Source of the DNA: Streptomyces sp. NBC_00425
GTDB taxonomy: Bacteria > Actinomycetota > Actinomycetes > Streptomycetales > Streptomycetaceae
Reading direction: 5' to 3'
Assembly: GCF_036030735.1 (NCBI RefSeq)
Contig: NZ_CP107928.1
Location: forward strand, 3,224,001 to 3,288,000
DNA: 64,000 nt
Shown: in pieces, positions 1,787 to 15,385 of the stretch
Position numbering within the stretch: position 1 is the stretch's first letter
How the letters are laid out: every line of letters starts with the position of its first letter
The notes under the pieces: generated by a model
The model's database searches: none
The model's input: only the letters and a program-made list of their open reading frames with translations
What the model was told of the DNA's origin: nothing
Position numbers and translations under genes: made by a program

Positions 1787-2473
1787 ATGCAGAACGTGAC
1801 CGCCGTGGCCCACCGCGGCGACCCCTACCGTCTCCGTGAGAACACGATCGCTTCGCTGCGTTCCGCGCTCGACCTGGGCGCGGACGCCGTGGAGTGCGAT
1901 GTACGGCTCACCCGGGACGGCGTGCCCGTGCTGCTGCACGACGCGACGTTGAAGCGGCTGTGGGCGCACGACCGTCCGCTGGCCTCGCTGTCCGCGGCCG
2001 AGGTGCGCGGGCTGACGGCCGGCGCGGTGCCGACGCTCGCGGAGGCGCTCGCGGCGACCGAGGGCAGCCGGCTGATGCTCGACCTGCCCGGGACCCGGGA
2101 GGTGGGCGCGGCACGGCGGATCGTCGACGCCGTGCGCGAGGCCGGGGCGACGGACCGGGTGTACTACTGCGCGGGCGCCGTCGCGATGCTCGCCGTGCGC
2201 GCCGCCGACCCGTCCGCCGAGATCGCGCTCACCTGCACGAGCCTGGCGCCCCCGCGACCGGCGCTGCTCGCGGCGGTGCGGCCGCGCTGGCTCAACTACC
2301 GCTTCTCCCTGGTGGACCGGGAGCTCGCCGCGCGCGTCCACCGGGCCGGCCACCTGCTCTCCGTCTGGACCCCCGACACCCGCCGTTCCCTGCGCCGGCT
2401 CATCGGCCTGGGCGTCGACTCGATCACCACGAACCGCATCGACCTCCTGACCGCGCTGCGCAAGGAGGGCTGA
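1787..2473 (+). CDS. Glycerophosphodiester phosphodiesterase
   Basis: The 228-residue protein starts with the GDPD signature: HRG at residues 8-10, then RENTIASLRSALDLGADAVE, ECDV and LLHD, which give the metal and substrate ligands. The family hydrolyses glycerophosphodiesters to glycerol 3-phosphate and an alcohol in phospholipid turnover. No signal peptide or membrane segment is visible, so it is probably cytoplasmic. It is short but spans the barrel, ending with the usual VWTPDT and GVDSITTNRID elements. It lies 27 bases after the deaminase gene, probably co-transcribed, and converges on the sigma-factor gene. Confidence 0.88.
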   Translation: MQNVTAVAHRGDPYRLRENTIASLRSALDLGADAVECDVRLTRDGVPVLLHDATLKRLWAHDRPLASLSAAEVRGLTAGAVPTLAEALAATEGSRLMLDLPGTREVGAARRIVDAVREAGATDRVYYCAGAVAMLAVRAADPSAEIALTCTSLAPPRPALLAAVRPRWLNYRFSLVDRELAARVHRAGHLLSVWTPDTRRSLRRLIGLGVDSITTNRIDLLTALRKEG

Positions 2474-2528
2474 GTCCCGGGGCCGTCGGACACCGGGCGC
2501 GCTGCCGTCTGCCGCGGTGGCGCCGCCC

Positions 2529-4250
2529 TCACACGCGGGAGAGCTGCGGCACGGTCGCCGGGTCGGCCGGGGTCTGCCGGGTCGCGTACTGCGGGACCGG
2601 TGTGTCGTCGCCGCCGGTGTCACGGACCAGCCCGTAGCGCCGCGCGCCCTGTCCCGGTCCGCTCGTGACGTCCCGCTCCACGGCGTCCCACGTTGTCGGG
2701 AAGACGTTGAGTCCGTAGTCGGCGCCCCGCTCGTTCACGGTGAGCGTGACGGTGCCCGTGAGGTAGAAGTACTCGTTCTGCCACATCTGCTGGGCGCCCG
2801 GCGGCAGGACGGCGTAGCCGGTGGCCCTGTCGCCCATGCCGGTGGCCGAGCCGTCCGTGCCGACGGGATCGTCCATCCGGCGTCCGCCGCCGGAGGCAAC
2901 GTGGAAGAGCCGGCCCCTGAGGCCGGTCCAGCTCGGCATGACCAGGGCTCCGGACCGGTACTGGGGCGATATCTGCCAGCGCACGAGGACGTAGCCCTGC
3001 CCGCTGAGCGTCACGCTGTCCCCGCGGTGGTTCATGGTGGCGTGGGCGCCGCCGCTGCTGGTGACGCCGGACGCGGGCCGCTCCGGCAGGGCAGCCGGCG
3101 GGGTGTCCGGGTCGGGCGCGCGGTCGACGGCGTCGACGACGCTTCCGTACCGGGCCGCCTTCTTCACGCTCTTCGACGGTGAGGGCGACGGTGACGCCGA
3201 CGGCGAGCCGGAGGGGGCGGCCTCGCCCGACGTGGAGGCGGCGGGCGAGGCGGGTGCGGCGGACACCGCGGACACCGCGGCCGCCGTCGGCGCGGTGGCC
3301 GCGCGCCCCGGCGGGTCCTCGGGCGTGTGCACGACGACGTACGCGCCGCCCGCGGCGAGCGTCGCGCCGGCCGTGACCGCGACGGCCGGCTTGCTCAGCG
3401 CGGTCAGCACCTTCGCGGACCAGCCGACGGAGGCGGTGCCGGCGGCCGCGGCGGCCGTCTTGCCGCCGAGGGCCAGGGAGATCGCGAATCCGGCCGGGAC
3501 GGGCACCAGGGCGATCCCCACGAGCAGCCGTTCCGCCGGCACGACGGACTCGCAGGCGCCGTCGCAGCAGCCGCAGCCGCGGATGTGCCGGGCCAGCCGC
3601 TTGCGCCAGACGGAGTCGGGGCGACCGGTCCAGCGGGCGGTCAGCTCGCGGAGGCCGGGGCAGGCGCCGTCGAGGGCGCGCACGATGCCCCGTGAGACCT
3701 CCAGCCGCTCCTTGACCCGCTGCACGCGCACGGCCGCGTGCTGCCGGTTGATGCCGACGGCCGCGGCCAGTTCGCGCCGGGTGAGCTCGCCCGCGACCTC
3801 CAGCCACCACAGGGACAGCAGCTGCCGGTCCTCGTCGTCCAGCCAGCGCACCGCCTCCGCGACCTCCCGCCGCTGCCCTTCCAACTGCAGCCGCAGAACG
3901 GTGAGTTCGGCGAAGTCGCTGGTCCCGTCGAGGGTCGTGCTCTCATTGAGAGGGGCGTCGGTCCTGCGGCGGGCCCGGTCACGCACCTGACGCATGGCGA
4001 TGGCCACCAGCCAGGAGCGGAAGCTGTCGGGGTCGCGCAGCGAACCGAGGTTGCCGACGGCCCGCAGCATGGTCTCCTGGACGACGTCGTCGACGTCGGC
4101 GTGGCCGTTGAGGGCCCGGCCGACGACGTTGTAGACGAGCGGCAGCCAGCCCGCCACCAGCTCGTCCAGCGCGTCCCGGTCGCCGGCCTGCGCGGCCGCG
4201 ACGGTGGCGCGCCAGTGCCCCCCGGCCTCGGCGTCGGCGTACGTCCTCAT
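2529..4250 (-). CDS. ECF sigma factor fused to zinc-finger-like, membrane and outer domains
   Basis: The 573-residue protein opens with sigma region 2 (about residues 15-95, including ADVDDVVQETMLRA) and region 4 (about 110-190, including the helix-turn-helix LTRRELAAAVGINRQHAAVRVQRVKE, which is partly quoted). A His/Cys cluster, HIRGCGCCDGAC (222-233), resembles a zinc-binding anti-sigma motif. Two hydrophobic stretches follow (about 240-262 and 288-308), then a Pro/Ala/Ser-rich linker (310-365) and a roughly 200-residue C-terminal domain of unknown type. I infer a membrane-tethered sigma factor carrying its own sensor. The target promoters are unknown. A G-quadruplex motif lies about 95 bases upstream. 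Confidence 0.8.
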   Translation of the reverse strand: MRTYADAEAGGHWRATVAAAQAGDRDALDELVAGWLPLVYNVVGRALNGHADVDDVVQETMLRAVGNLGSLRDPDSFRSWLVAIAMRQVRDRARRRTDAPLNESTTLDGTSDFAELTVLRLQLEGQRREVAEAVRWLDDEDRQLLSLWWLEVAGELTRRELAAAVGINRQHAAVRVQRVKERLEVSRGIVRALDGACPGLRELTARWTGRPDSVWRKRLARHIRGCGCCDGACESVVPAERLLVGIALVPVPAGFAISLALGGKTAAAAAGTASVGWSAKVLTALSKPAVAVTAGATLAAGGAYVVVHTPEDPPGRAATAPTAAAVSAVSAAPASPAASTSGEAAPSGSPSASPSPSPSKSVKKAARYGSVVDAVDRAPDPDTPPAALPERPASGVTSSGGAHATMNHRGDSVTLSGQGYVLVRWQISPQYRSGALVMPSWTGLRGRLFHVASGGGRRMDDPVGTDGSATGMGDRATGYAVLPPGAQQMWQNEYFYLTGTVTLTVNERGADYGLNVFPTTWDAVERDVTSGPGQGARRYGLVRDTGGDDTPVPQYATRQTPADPATVPQLSRV

Positions 4251-5014: not shown

Positions 5015-5554
5015 TCACCGGCGCGTGGCTGCGGCGGACGGCATGACAGACCGCTCGTCCGACTCCGCCGGAGCGGGCCGGACCCCGGCCTGCGACGGCG
5101 ACGGCGACGGTGGCGACGGCGACCGGTCAGGGCTGCGGCCGCCGGTGGAGGCAGCGGTGTCGGTGGGAGCAGTCGAGGGCCGGGCGTCCGATGGCCGGGT
5201 CGCGATCGCCCCCTCGGTAGGGTCCTCGGCGACCGGGCTCGCCGGGGCCGTAGGGGTGGGCACGGTCGCCGGGCCGCTCGCCGGGGGCGGGGCGAGCGGG
5301 ATCGCGGGCGGCGGCGTCCCGGACGTCGCCGGGCGCAGCGGCAGCAGGACGGCGAGCGCGGCGACGGCGCAGGTGGCGCCGGCCGCGGCCGCGGCACGCA
5401 GGGTCCGGCGGCGGCGCGCACCGCGACGGATCCGCTCGTAGCTGCCGGCGGGCGGCGCGAGACGACCGGAGGCGGGCCGCAGGACGACGGCGAGGGGGTC
5501 GTCGGGGGCGAGGTCAGGACGGCCGTCGTCGAAGTCGTCAACGGGCGTGATCAA
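5015..5554 (-). CDS. Proline-rich single-span membrane protein, last gene of the sortase/sigma operon
   Basis: The 179-residue protein has a short soluble N-terminus containing YERIRRGARRRRTLRAAAAAGA, of which the arginine cluster precedes one hydrophobic helix (about residues 55-75), then a Pro/Ala/Thr-rich tail of about 100 residues. The start is a TTG at 5554 behind GAGGAGAAGCC and overlaps the sigma-factor end by 17 bases. The topology (inside N-terminus, one helix, extended outer tail) and the place right after an ECF sigma gene fit a cognate membrane partner, possibly an anti-sigma factor. No zinc-binding motif is visible, so this is inference. Confidence 0.65.
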   Translation of the reverse strand: MITPVDDFDDGRPDLAPDDPLAVVLRPASGRLAPPAGSYERIRRGARRRRTLRAAAAAGATCAVAALAVLLPLRPATSGTPPPAIPLAPPPASGPATVPTPTAPASPVAEDPTEGAIATRPSDARPSTAPTDTAASTGGRSPDRSPSPPSPSPSQAGVRPAPAESDERSVMPSAAATRR

Positions 5555-6035
5555 GGCTTCTCCTCAGGTGGGCGCGGAGCAGTTCGCGGGCCGCGTGCAG
5601 GTCGGCCTTGACGGTCCCTTCCTTGCGCCCGGTCAGCGCGGACACCTCCCGGATCGGCATGTCAGCGTAGTAGTGCAGCAGGATCGGGACGCGCAGCCGG
5701 TCGGGCAGGGACTGCACGAGCATCCGCACCGAGGGGTCGGCCGGTTCGGCGCAGGGGGCGATCGCCGCCTCGGCGGTGGCGCGGCGCACGGCCCGGCGTT
5801 CCCGTTCGAGCTTGCGCCAGTGGTCGCGGACGAGGTTGGCGGCGGTGACGAACAGGAAGCCCTGGGGCTCAGCCACCGACGTCCAGCGGGCCCACAGCCG
5901 GGTGAACGCCTCCGACGCGATCTCGTGCGCCGTCTCGTCGTCGTCGACGAGACGGCGGCACCAGCCGGCCAGGCGCGGATAGAGGGCGGCGAACAGCTCG
6001 GACGCCGCCCTGTCGCGCGAGCGTGACCGTTTCAA
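5538..6035 (-). CDS. ECF (extracytoplasmic function) RNA polymerase sigma factor
   Basis: The 165-residue protein has sigma region 2 (ASELFAALYPRLAGWCRRLV through FVTAANLVRDHWRK) and region 4 (LPDRLRVPILLHYYADMPI followed by REVSALTGRKEGTVKADLHAARELLRAHL). The best start is the TTG at 6035, behind GGGAGAA, because it gives a standard sigma N-terminus and overlaps the sortase stop codon by 4 bases (TTGA), a usual sign of translational coupling. Longer versions of the frame run through the sortase gene and are not credible. It probably transcribes its own operon from the ECF-like promoter at 7124-7147. Confidence 0.85.
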   Translation of the reverse strand: MKRSRSRDRAASELFAALYPRLAGWCRRLVDDDETAHEIASEAFTRLWARWTSVAEPQGFLFVTAANLVRDHWRKLERERRAVRRATAEAAIAPCAEPADPSVRMLVQSLPDRLRVPILLHYYADMPIREVSALTGRKEGTVKADLHAARELLRAHLRRSLDHAR

Positions 6036-6709
6036 CGTTCTCCCGCAGAACTGCTCGAGCCGCTCGACCCCGCGCCCAGCACGGCGAAGACGATCACGTT
6101 GTCGCGGTATCCGTCGCCGCTGCGGGGGCCGCCGCACGTGATGAGACGCAGTTCGGGGCGGTCCACGTTCCCGTAGACGTCCTGCGTCGGGAAGTGCGAC
6201 TTGTCGACGGTCCGCACCTCGGTGACGGCGAACTCGGCCGTCGTGCCGTTCTCCAGACGCGCCGCGATCCGGTCGCCGGCGTGCAGCCGGCCCAGTCGGC
6301 GGAAGACGCCGTCGCCGTACCGGCCGACCGTGACATGACCGAGGATCACCGACGGCCCCGTCTGCCCCGGAGTCGGCGAATGCTCGTACCAACCCGCCCG
6401 GTCGTGTTCCTCGACCGGAGGCACCTGGACGCTGCCGTCGGCGGCCAGTCCCAGCCGCATGACCGGGGTGTCCACCCCGATGGCCTCGATCCGCAGCCCG
6501 AGCGGCGCCGACCGCGCGAGCGGACGCACCGCCCGCCCGGCGGACACGGGGGGAGCCGAGGAAGCCGGGGAGGGCGAGGAGGCGGCGGGACCCGAGGCGG
6601 CCGTGGAGGCGCCCGGCGTGGACCCGGCCGTCGAGCCGCCGGCGCAGCCCGTGAGCAGCAGCGCTGCCAGGGCCGTCAGGGCCGCGGCGCGCCTGGAGAG
6701 CGGGCTCAT
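6032..6709 (-). CDS. Class F-like sortase with lipoprotein signal
   Basis: The 225-residue protein has the sortase catalytic set: His in ILGHVTVG, Cys in LRLITCGG and Arg in GYRDNVIVFA. Sequence features and size fit actinobacterial class F sortases. The N-terminus (LTALAALLLTGCAGG) carries a lipobox with Cys at residue 22, so it may be lipid-anchored outside the membrane, which is unusual for a sortase. A Ser/Pro/Ala-rich spacer (25-60) precedes the catalytic domain. The ATG at 6709 overlaps the preceding stop codon by 4 bases. The likely substrate is the small exported protein encoded just upstream. Confidence 0.85.
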   Translation of the reverse strand: MSPLSRRAAALTALAALLLTGCAGGSTAGSTPGASTAASGPAASSPSPASSAPPVSAGRAVRPLARSAPLGLRIEAIGVDTPVMRLGLAADGSVQVPPVEEHDRAGWYEHSPTPGQTGPSVILGHVTVGRYGDGVFRRLGRLHAGDRIAARLENGTTAEFAVTEVRTVDKSHFPTQDVYGNVDRPELRLITCGGPRSGDGYRDNVIVFAVLGAGSSGSSSSAGER

Positions 6710-7080
6710 GCGCCGGACGCCCTCCGGCGGCGTACGACGTGGAAGACCACGCCGGCCGCCGCGGAAGCCGCCGCCGCGCCGCCGATCAGTGCGCCGTGGC
6801 CCTCGGACGCAGGCTCGGCGACACCGGTCCCGGCCCCTCCCCTGGGCACCACGCCGACCTGGCTCGGCATGGCCGCCGGGGTCCTGCCGGACTCGGCGGG
6901 AGCGGTGGTCGGCACGGCGGAGGCGTCGGCCGGGGCCTGGGTCGGAGAGGCGGTTCGCCCGGCGGTGGTGGGCGCCGGGGCCGGCGTCGTCGAGTCGGCG
7001 AGTGCGGGCGTTGCGCCCGCCAGCAGGGCGGCACCCGCAATTGCCAGGCCGGCCAGGCCCGTTCGGGACATGAGTCGCAT
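6706..7080 (-). CDS. Small exported protein, probable sortase substrate
   Basis: The 124-residue protein has a signal peptide (about residues 1-28, ending TPALADS), a Thr/Pro/Ala-rich middle, the segment QVGVVPRGGAGTG (about 75-87), a hydrophobic helix (about 96-115) and the basic tail VVRRRRASGA. This is the usual layout of a sortase substrate (motif, helix, positive tail), but there is no LPxTG or LAxTG. From memory, similar VPxGGxxTG motifs recur in Streptomyces proteins, so I suggest it may be the sorting signal here. It is the first gene of the operon. Confidence 0.7.
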   Translation of the reverse strand: MRLMSRTGLAGLAIAGAALLAGATPALADSTTPAPAPTTAGRTASPTQAPADASAVPTTAPAESGRTPAAMPSQVGVVPRGGAGTGVAEPASEGHGALIGGAAAASAAAGVVFHVVRRRRASGA

Positions 7081-7123
7081 GAATCGCTCTCTTTCGTCGG
7101 TCCGTTGACGGATCGGACGAAGA

Positions 7124-7147
7124 GACGAGACAGCCCGGGACCGGGTT
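7124..7147 (-). promoter_or_regulatory. ECF-type promoter motif (AACC-N16-CGTC)
   Basis: On the minus strand, AACC at 7147-7144 is followed after 16 bases by CGTC at 7127-7124, 44 bases upstream of the first gene of the sortase/sigma operon. AAC in the -35 and CGTC in the -10 are typical of many ECF promoters, so autoregulation is likely. Confidence 0.5.
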
Positions 7148-7216
7148 GTAAAGAGCTGGCAAAGTCGAAATCCGACACCCTGACGCCCACCGCCGACCCG
7201 TCAAGGGCACAGCAGA

Positions 7217-14653: not shown

Positions 14654-15385
14654 GTGTCCCTTTCCCGCCGTATCGCCGCCCGTTCGGTGCGCATGCTCGG
14701 TGTCACCGCCGCCGCCTCCGCCCTCGCCCTCAGCGCCTCGGGCACCGCGCTGGCCTGCGAGATAGGCGACTTCTCCGCCGCAGCCGCCTGCGACGGCGCC
14801 AAGGGCGTCATCACCGTCACCGACAAGGACGCCTCGGGTGTCCCGGCCGTCATCACCGTCTTCCTCGAGAACAACGGCGCCGACTTCCGGCAGGTCGGCA
14901 CGGAACAGACCGTCAAGGGCTCGAAGAAGGGCGTCACCGTCTCCTTCGCCGAGGACTGGGAGCCGGGCGCGATCTACCGGATCCACGTCAAGGCCGTCAA
15001 GGGCAAGAAGCTCCTGGTCGACACCGACATCAACGCCGGCGAGAACCTGACCACCCCGGCCAAGGCGTGCGCGGCCGACACCTCCACGCCGACCGGCACC
15101 CCGTCCTCGACGCCTCCCTCGACGCCGTCGGGCACCACCACCACGCCGCCGGCCGAGACGGCGACCGCCCTGCCGTCGCCGTCCGAATCGACGAGCGACA
15201 GCTCCGCGCCCGGCGCGCCGTCCGCGAGCAACGCGCCCTCGGCCGCGGTCCAGGAGTCCAACCTCGCCGAGACCGGCGCCAGTTCCAGCACCGGCCTGAT
15301 CGTCGGCGTCGCGGGCGCCCTGGTCGTCGTCGGCGGCGGCGCGGTGTTCTTCGGAATGCGTCGCCGCGGGTCCAGCCACCGCTGA
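14654..15385 (+). CDS. LAETG-anchored surface protein (sortase substrate)
   Basis: The 243-residue protein has a twin-basic signal peptide (to about residue 33, ending GTALA), a compact domain of about 100 residues with two Cys near its start ([15 protein letters not shown]), a Thr/Pro/Ser-rich wall-spanning stretch (about 140-205), the sorting motif LAETG (about 212-216), a hydrophobic helix and the tail MRRRGSSHR. LAxTG is the motif used by class E sortases of Streptomyces, so it should be linked to peptidoglycan. The GTG start lies behind AAAGGACA. The ligand or role of the outer domain is unknown. Confidence 0.85.

Follow-up and report, generated by a model that had tools for sequence, protein, structure and literature searches.

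A Streptomyces operon that couples a class F sortase to its probable substrate, an ECF sigma factor and a candidate sigma regulator

The role of class F sortases is called unknown or inconclusive in the accessible parts of recent papers (PMC13251363, PMC13257024), and a locus in Streptomyces sp. NBC_00425 raises the question of what such a sortase might anchor and why a sigma factor should be encoded with it. The locus lies in a 64,000-nucleotide stretch of DNA (the window, to which our coordinates refer; contig NZ_CP107928.1, positions 3,224,001 to 3,288,000) of a 9.8 Mb single-contig genome. It consists of four overlapping genes, all on the minus strand, which code for: 1) a probable sortase substrate of 124 residues (6706..7080), in which a signal peptide is followed by a Pro/Ala/Ser/Thr-rich segment, a sorting signal, a helix and an RRRR tail; 2) a class F sortase of 225 residues (6032..6709); 3) an extracytoplasmic function (ECF) sigma factor of 165 residues (5538..6035); and 4) a single-span membrane protein of 179 residues (5015..5554), a candidate regulator of the sigma factor. 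The original prediction had described this run of a secreted protein, a sortase, an ECF sigma factor and a Pro-rich single-span protein, with overlaps of 4, 4 and 17 bases, and upon re-reading every element of it proved real. The substrate and sortase genes overlap by ATGA and the sortase and sigma genes by TTGA, with a TTG start for the sigma gene; the fourth gene, which likewise starts with TTG, shares 17 bases with the sigma gene. The C-terminal residues AGER are kept in many sortase homologues and, on direct reading, their codons in the window contain GGAGAA just 5' of the TTGA overlap, which could serve as a ribosome site for the sigma gene.

This four-gene coupling is not a product of chance: of 330 related loci the best 80 were compared, and the genes stand in the same order there. 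These 330 are stretches with a relative from genomes of named species, and the titles of the best 80 all name Streptomyces, save for one Actinobacteria bacterium; the named close relatives of the window sortase are also Streptomyces proteins. In all 80 loci the reading frame of a protein with the substrate-type tail stops at the start of the sortase or close to it, and the sigma gene lies 3' of the sortase gene in 78, the contigs of the remaining two stopping just past the sortase. The sigma factor is the most conserved member, with a median identity to the window of 90% (78 loci), followed by the sortase with 67%, the fourth protein with 57% (69 loci) and the substrate with 45% (71 loci), the last two values being taken over tblastn-found loci only. 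Among 101 drawn Streptomyces genomes the sigma gene (E up to 1e-55) occurs in 28, in single copy each time. The association also extends to another genus of the same order, where the sortase, an APNTG signal, the promoter described below and a sigma factor 70-73% identical to that of the window were found together in all five genomes, a similar fourth protein being seen in four of them. We regard it as likely that these genes form a self-contained system for surface display, predicted from comparative sequence analysis, in which the sigma factor would amplify mainly its own promoter, the fourth protein would restrain it and the sortase would anchor the substrate.

The substrate has the layout of a sortase cargo, as had been noted from the start: it has VPRGGAGTG (residues 78-86) before a helix and ends in the RRRR tail, and LPxTG is absent. 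Alignment of 81 sequences (80 loci and the window) position by position revealed a consensus P-x-G-x-x-x-T-G, in which the proline, the threonine and the last glycine are invariant and the first glycine is kept in 80 of 81; its core in the window is P-R-G-G-A-G-T-G (residues 79-86; 6823..6846). The residue after P-x-G is alanine in 77 of the 81 sequences, and the resulting pentapeptides are APDTG (47), AADTG (17), APNTG (13), GADTG (3) and GAGTG (1, the window itself). A second set of 63 loci that includes the window carried the signal in 61, as APDTG (36), APNTG (10), AADTG (8), GADTG (2), GAGTG (2, in the window and in a close relative) and, in three loci, odd forms. The GG form of the window is thus a local variant of a signal with alanine in place of the leucine of LPxTG; its operon relatives mostly carry AP[DN]TG or AADTG. 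An assignment of the substrate to the LPXTG or LAXTG proteins was rejected, its pentapeptide being GAGTG and its relatives also lacking LPxTG and LAxTG. A strict form of the signal was found in 72 of 73 sortase-adjacent open reading frames with such a tail in the 80 operon loci, as against none of 35 elsewhere in those loci. In the 64 kb of the window the substrate is the only one of nine tail reading frames with the pattern P-x-G-[GAHS]-[VAPM]-x-[TA]-G. The fourth protein was also considered as a second sortase substrate and was rejected on direct reading, as it has neither the signal nor a C-terminal helix.

To what extent does the signal mark class F cargo in general? The original prediction had proposed VPxGGxxTG as the class F signal. 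In essence this holds. Outside the family of the window, 57 genomes gave a class F match, and a single locus was compared from each of 40 of these; in 28 of the 40, from 12 of the 18 families represented, a tail protein within the fetched stretch has the pattern P-x-G-[GAHS]-[VAPM]-x-[TA]-G, as against 0.5% of shuffled tails. The exact consensus, however, was derived from an outlier among sequences that nearly all carry alanine after P-x-G. This strict motif was written after the loci had been viewed, and its counts describe rather than predict. The other 12 of the 40 loci lack it, a few having near-forms such as HVDGG (L254), and six of the 40 have no qualifying tail reading frame. Neighbors of other class F sortases in the same genome carry, for example, P-R-G-S-V-K-T-G, P-E-G-G-V-H-A-G and P-S-G-G-M-H-T-G. 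One class F paralogue of this genome (G000:C1:6075938; L039) is preceded by an LARTG-type protein and a tail protein with a degenerate glycine-rich signal (1105-2133 and 2208-3758 of that locus).

An independent test, unlike the inspected motif, came from the curated model NF058571 (GVDTG_CTERM), which describes the same layout as that of the window substrate. Enrichment near class F sortases had been set beforehand as a test of the motif, and it was found: across 31 Streptomyces genomes at least 40 of 51 matches over the cut-off lie within 2 kb of a class F sortase, with about 0.13 expected, and at least 36 of those near such sortases are upstream of it on the same strand. The comparison covered 150 of 181 class F matches and 85 domain rows, among them every one of the 51 that exceed the cut-off; 11 of the 51 were not within 2 kb of the sortases compared, and at least 19 of the 34 weaker rows were near one. 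The window substrate aligns to the model over its full length with 15.1 bits against a cut-off of 29, and five operon relatives reach 17.6-24.8 bits, all below that cut-off; the substrate is accordingly related to the NF058571 domain and not a member of it. The implied newness of the motif would thus hold, as far as our search of the literature shows, for the AP[DN]TG subtype and for the wider spread over families, but not for the type as such, for which NCBIfam already holds this related model.

The class assignment of the sortase, with its lipobox, was borne out by the NF033748 class F model (189.4 bits, cut-off 166) and by a lipobox LLLTGC whose Cys22 is invariant in all 20 aligned homologues. 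The catalytic His125 and Cys192 are invariant among 26 aligned class F sortases. A structure predicted from a diverse alignment (predicted local distance difference test, pLDDT, 81.5) has the sortase fold; a first model from close homologues only (pLDDT 59) was not used. A search of solved structures with the single sortase sequence gave no match, and an alignment-based search recovered three distant sortases, none labelled class F; we do not take the lack of a class F entry among the fold matches as evidence. The beta8 position, which in the register assumed here is the catalytic arginine site of other sortases, holds Asn204 in at least 90% of the 26 class F sortases, and Arg188, four residues before the cysteine, is invariant; the feature was noted in the window sortase and in those of L006, L008-L012, L042, L043, L045, L047-L051 and L206-L210. 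A His-Cys-Arg triad is stated for all sortases in the accessible part of a recent paper (PMC13257024), and the catalytic arginine of class F may possibly have been relocated to the position four residues before the cysteine. Class F accounts for eight of the 12 sortases of the window genome, and a tblastn search (E up to 1e-3) of 8-9 kb at each of the seven class F loci apart from the operon detected no sigma gene of the operon type. When aligned with their paralogues, the operon-type sortases show GHVTVGxYGxGVF (residues ~125-135) and a shorter beta7-beta8 loop (~194-201), which may be linked to the different sorting signal of the operon.

The sigma factor matches TIGR02937 (52.1 bits, cut-off 42.9), PF04542 and PF08281 over their cut-offs; the TIGR02983 (SigE-fam_strep) model gave 75.1 bits, below its cut-off of 141.55. 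Upstream of the substrate gene, whose ATG is at 7080, we predict an ECF promoter (TTTACAACC; 7124..7152, minus strand) with a -35 element ACAACC (7144-7149), a 16-base spacer and a -10 element CGTC (7124-7127). The footprint CTTTRCAAC[CG]-N16-CGTC is seen 5' of the substrate gene in 79 of the 80 loci, and [AG]CAAC[CG]-N16-CGTC is present in all 72 upstream regions compared (71 loci and the window), where it lies inside a longer conserved block. The strict form TTTRCAACC-N15-TCGTC occurs in 72 of the 80 loci, 404-590 bases before the sortase, with a near-form at the same range in seven more, and nowhere else within these loci. A dedicated sigma-promoter pair should be present or absent together, and this is what was found: of 48 whole genomes, 32 have the operon and 28 of these contain the strict form, each a single time, whereas the 16 genomes that lack the operon do not contain it at all; the reversed-pattern control gave no site in any of the 48. 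The evidence thus points to a sigma factor that serves its own operon. A second ECF-like sigma factor of 573 residues is encoded about 0.8 kb from the operon (2529-4250, minus strand); on direct reading, its long extension includes a hydrophobic span and a portion that appears to be extracytoplasmic.

The steps of this display system might be as follows. An envelope signal would release the sigma factor from its inhibitor, most likely the fourth protein, which would hold it inactive through a conserved cytoplasmic juxtamembrane motif. The active sigma factor would then fire its own promoter, so that substrate, sortase, sigma factor and regulator would rise together in a self-amplifying manner, and the sortase would cut the substrate between the threonine and the glycine of the signal and join it to the wall. 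In Streptomyces coelicolor the inducing condition would be a disturbed supply of polyprenol-phosphate-mannose. There, in a ppm1 mutant, SCO3736, SCO3737 and SCO3738 rose 13-, 37- and 32-fold and were the most significantly up-regulated genes in the accessible part of the report, which gives sigE as unchanged in its results and lists it as down in its discussion (PMC5882110, 2018). The signal and the regulator step we infer; the dedication of the promoter is drawn from the comparative data.

The rival that survives best, though we hold it to be fairly unlikely, is that the fourth protein is a co-encoded envelope protein and no sigma regulator at all. The protein begins with a short acidic segment, followed by a basic juxtamembrane motif that is conserved (LAPPAGSYERIRRGARRRR; 5405..5461, minus strand), one helix and a Pro/Ser/Thr-rich remainder that is predicted to lie outside the cell. 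Zinc anti-sigma factors carry HxxxCxxC in their cytoplasmic part. Assignment to that type failed, as direct reading found no Cys or His before the helix and no Pfam family matched over its cut-off; those of its 94 homologues that bear a name are called hypothetical, a few stray labels (Cellulase, Serine/threonine protein kinase) excepted, and no anti-sigma factor appears among the names. What speaks against the rival is position and conservation: the protein lies 3' of the sigma gene with the strict motif in 74 of 78 loci and with variants of it in two more, the other two contigs stopping 63 and 73 bases past the sigma gene, and this cytoplasmic motif is strongly conserved. Furthermore, six loci (L211-L216) code for sigma relatives 56-60% identical to that of the window with no sortase relative within the fetched stretches, which we treat as another branch; the neighbors of four were viewed, and in two cases (L211, L212) the sigma gene is followed by that of a membrane protein with a PPPG-type motif. 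Both scanned neighbors of such sortase-free relatives (L212, L213) contain DUF4232, and the DUF4232 and PPPG proteins perhaps represent a wider family of sigma partners. On these comparisons the fourth protein is a likelier regulator of the sigma factor than the anchored substrate.

It is unlikely that the sigma factor runs a wider envelope-stress regulon of which the operon is merely the best-matching target. ECF sigma factors often have several targets, and in four of the operon-bearing genomes the promoter site has diverged. In the window genome a search with up to three mismatches gave 32 sites, three of them with two mismatches and 28 with three, against 14 in all for the reversed control, and a looser -35/-10 pattern gave 18 against 8; weaker sigma targets in that genome are thus possible. 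Against a wider regulon, the strict site is unique in all 28 genomes that have it and belongs to the operon each time: 27 lie just upstream of it and the 28th (G063) is on a separate contig that carries the start of the same operon. The best additional site of the looser pattern, at position 2920312 and the only other candidate of the window genome whose surroundings were read, is antisense inside a reading frame of 1306 residues and was dropped as a second target.

The original prediction had the sigma factor respond to the state of the anchored protein. That the genes for substrate, sortase and sigma factor are so tightly coupled would favor this, but it is very unlikely, since we found no part that links the substrate to the sigma factor and the substrate is the least conserved member of the operon; the inducer reported in the accessible part of the S. 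coelicolor study, loss of polyprenol phosphate mannose synthase, also speaks against it (PMC5882110). That the tail protein is a plain membrane protein, with the sortase having different targets, is very unlikely too: its signal falls below the cut-off of every curated sorting-domain model reported, in the window and five relatives, but P, G, T and G are each kept in 80 or 81 of the 81 sequences of a protein with only 45% median identity, and the same type of signal recurs at the class F loci of 12 of the 18 other families.

Several observations weigh against the operon as a self-contained display unit under a private sigma factor. The choice of the best 80 loci over-represents close relatives; one of these 80 (L104) has no form of the promoter, not even a near-form; four of the 32 operon genomes have near-forms at the operon in place of the strict site; and the excess of three-mismatch sites in the window genome over their control counts in the same direction. 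For the fourth protein, neither Pfam nor NCBIfam gave a match over a cut-off. In S. coelicolor, SCO3735 is drawn downstream and is not listed as induced in the accessible part of the report, which disfavors a four-gene unit there (PMC5882110), and SCO3736-SCO3738 are probably the same operon as that of the window, as judged from gene order and kind. Finally, a strain of Actinoplanes missouriensis from which the four srtF genes had all been deleted showed no phenotype, according to the accessible part of that study (PMC13251363, 2026). We still prefer the display operon with its own sigma switch, and offer one extension of it as a speculative and quite unlikely guess: the fourth protein might report on surface mannosylation, its outer, Pro/Ser/Thr-rich part being O-mannosylated as long as polyprenol phosphate mannose is in good supply, and once the sugar is lost it might free a private, single-target sigma factor that would switch on only its own anchoring operon.

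A signal common to many families would allow class F cargo to be listed and tested by one peptide-cleavage assay. The sigma factor, with apparently one strong promoter and a presence that follows that of the operon in the genomes checked, would offer an unusually clean system for the study of ECF switches. Its strong induction upon loss of polyprenol phosphate mannose synthase, as given in the accessible part of the S. coelicolor report, would tie the operon to envelope glycosylation, which influences how susceptible that species is to antibiotics.

The closest known counterpart is SCO3736-SCO3738, which like the window operon combines an ECF sigma factor, a lipoprotein-type sortase (cd05829) and a membrane protein in one transcription unit, SCO3738 having been proposed as the substrate of the sortase SCO3737; a sorting motif, a promoter and a fourth regulatory gene, described here for the window operon, do not figure in the accessible part of that account (PMC5882110). 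Elsewhere, as far as the accessible parts of those papers go, SCO3736 is among the genes down after pH shock (PMC2631018) and appears in a network model of germination (PMC3902916). The domain of NF058571, whose matches over the cut-off lie near class F sortases, has GVDTG where the operon core is mostly AP[DN]TG or AADTG. In A. missouriensis, SrtF1 and SrtF4 adjoin AMIS_11010 and AMIS_36440, which like the window substrate have a signal peptide, a helix and a basic tail and no known pentapeptide; the accessible part of the study mentions no sigma factor adjacent to these class F loci, unlike the window, and its authors also suspect the adjacent tail proteins as class F substrates (PMC13251363). 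The srtE gene of that organism and the genes for its substrates are at separate loci in the same account. S. coelicolor SrtE1 and SrtE2 share the sortase fold, wall anchoring and the genus with the window system, but in the accessible part of their description they are of class E and act on LAXTG, whereas the window pairs class F with GAGTG (PMC5148588). The window also codes for an LAETG surface protein (14654-15385, plus strand; NF041528, 44.5 bits, cut-off 30), a substrate of the class E type. SrtF of Cutibacterium acnes is of class F like the window sortase; the accessible parts of two papers report it as the only sortase there and as recognizing LPXTG (PMC13257024, PMC7913060). Our search of the literature on class F sortases and on Streptomyces operons that combine sortases with ECF sigma factors found no account of the operon motif or its promoter. 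Already known, then, are the three-gene operon, the guess that its membrane protein is the substrate, and the curated GVDTG domain; as far as that search shows, the new elements would be the class F signal in 12 further families with its AP[DN]TG subtype, the constant presence of a fourth gene, whose product has the juxtamembrane motif, and the apparently private promoter.

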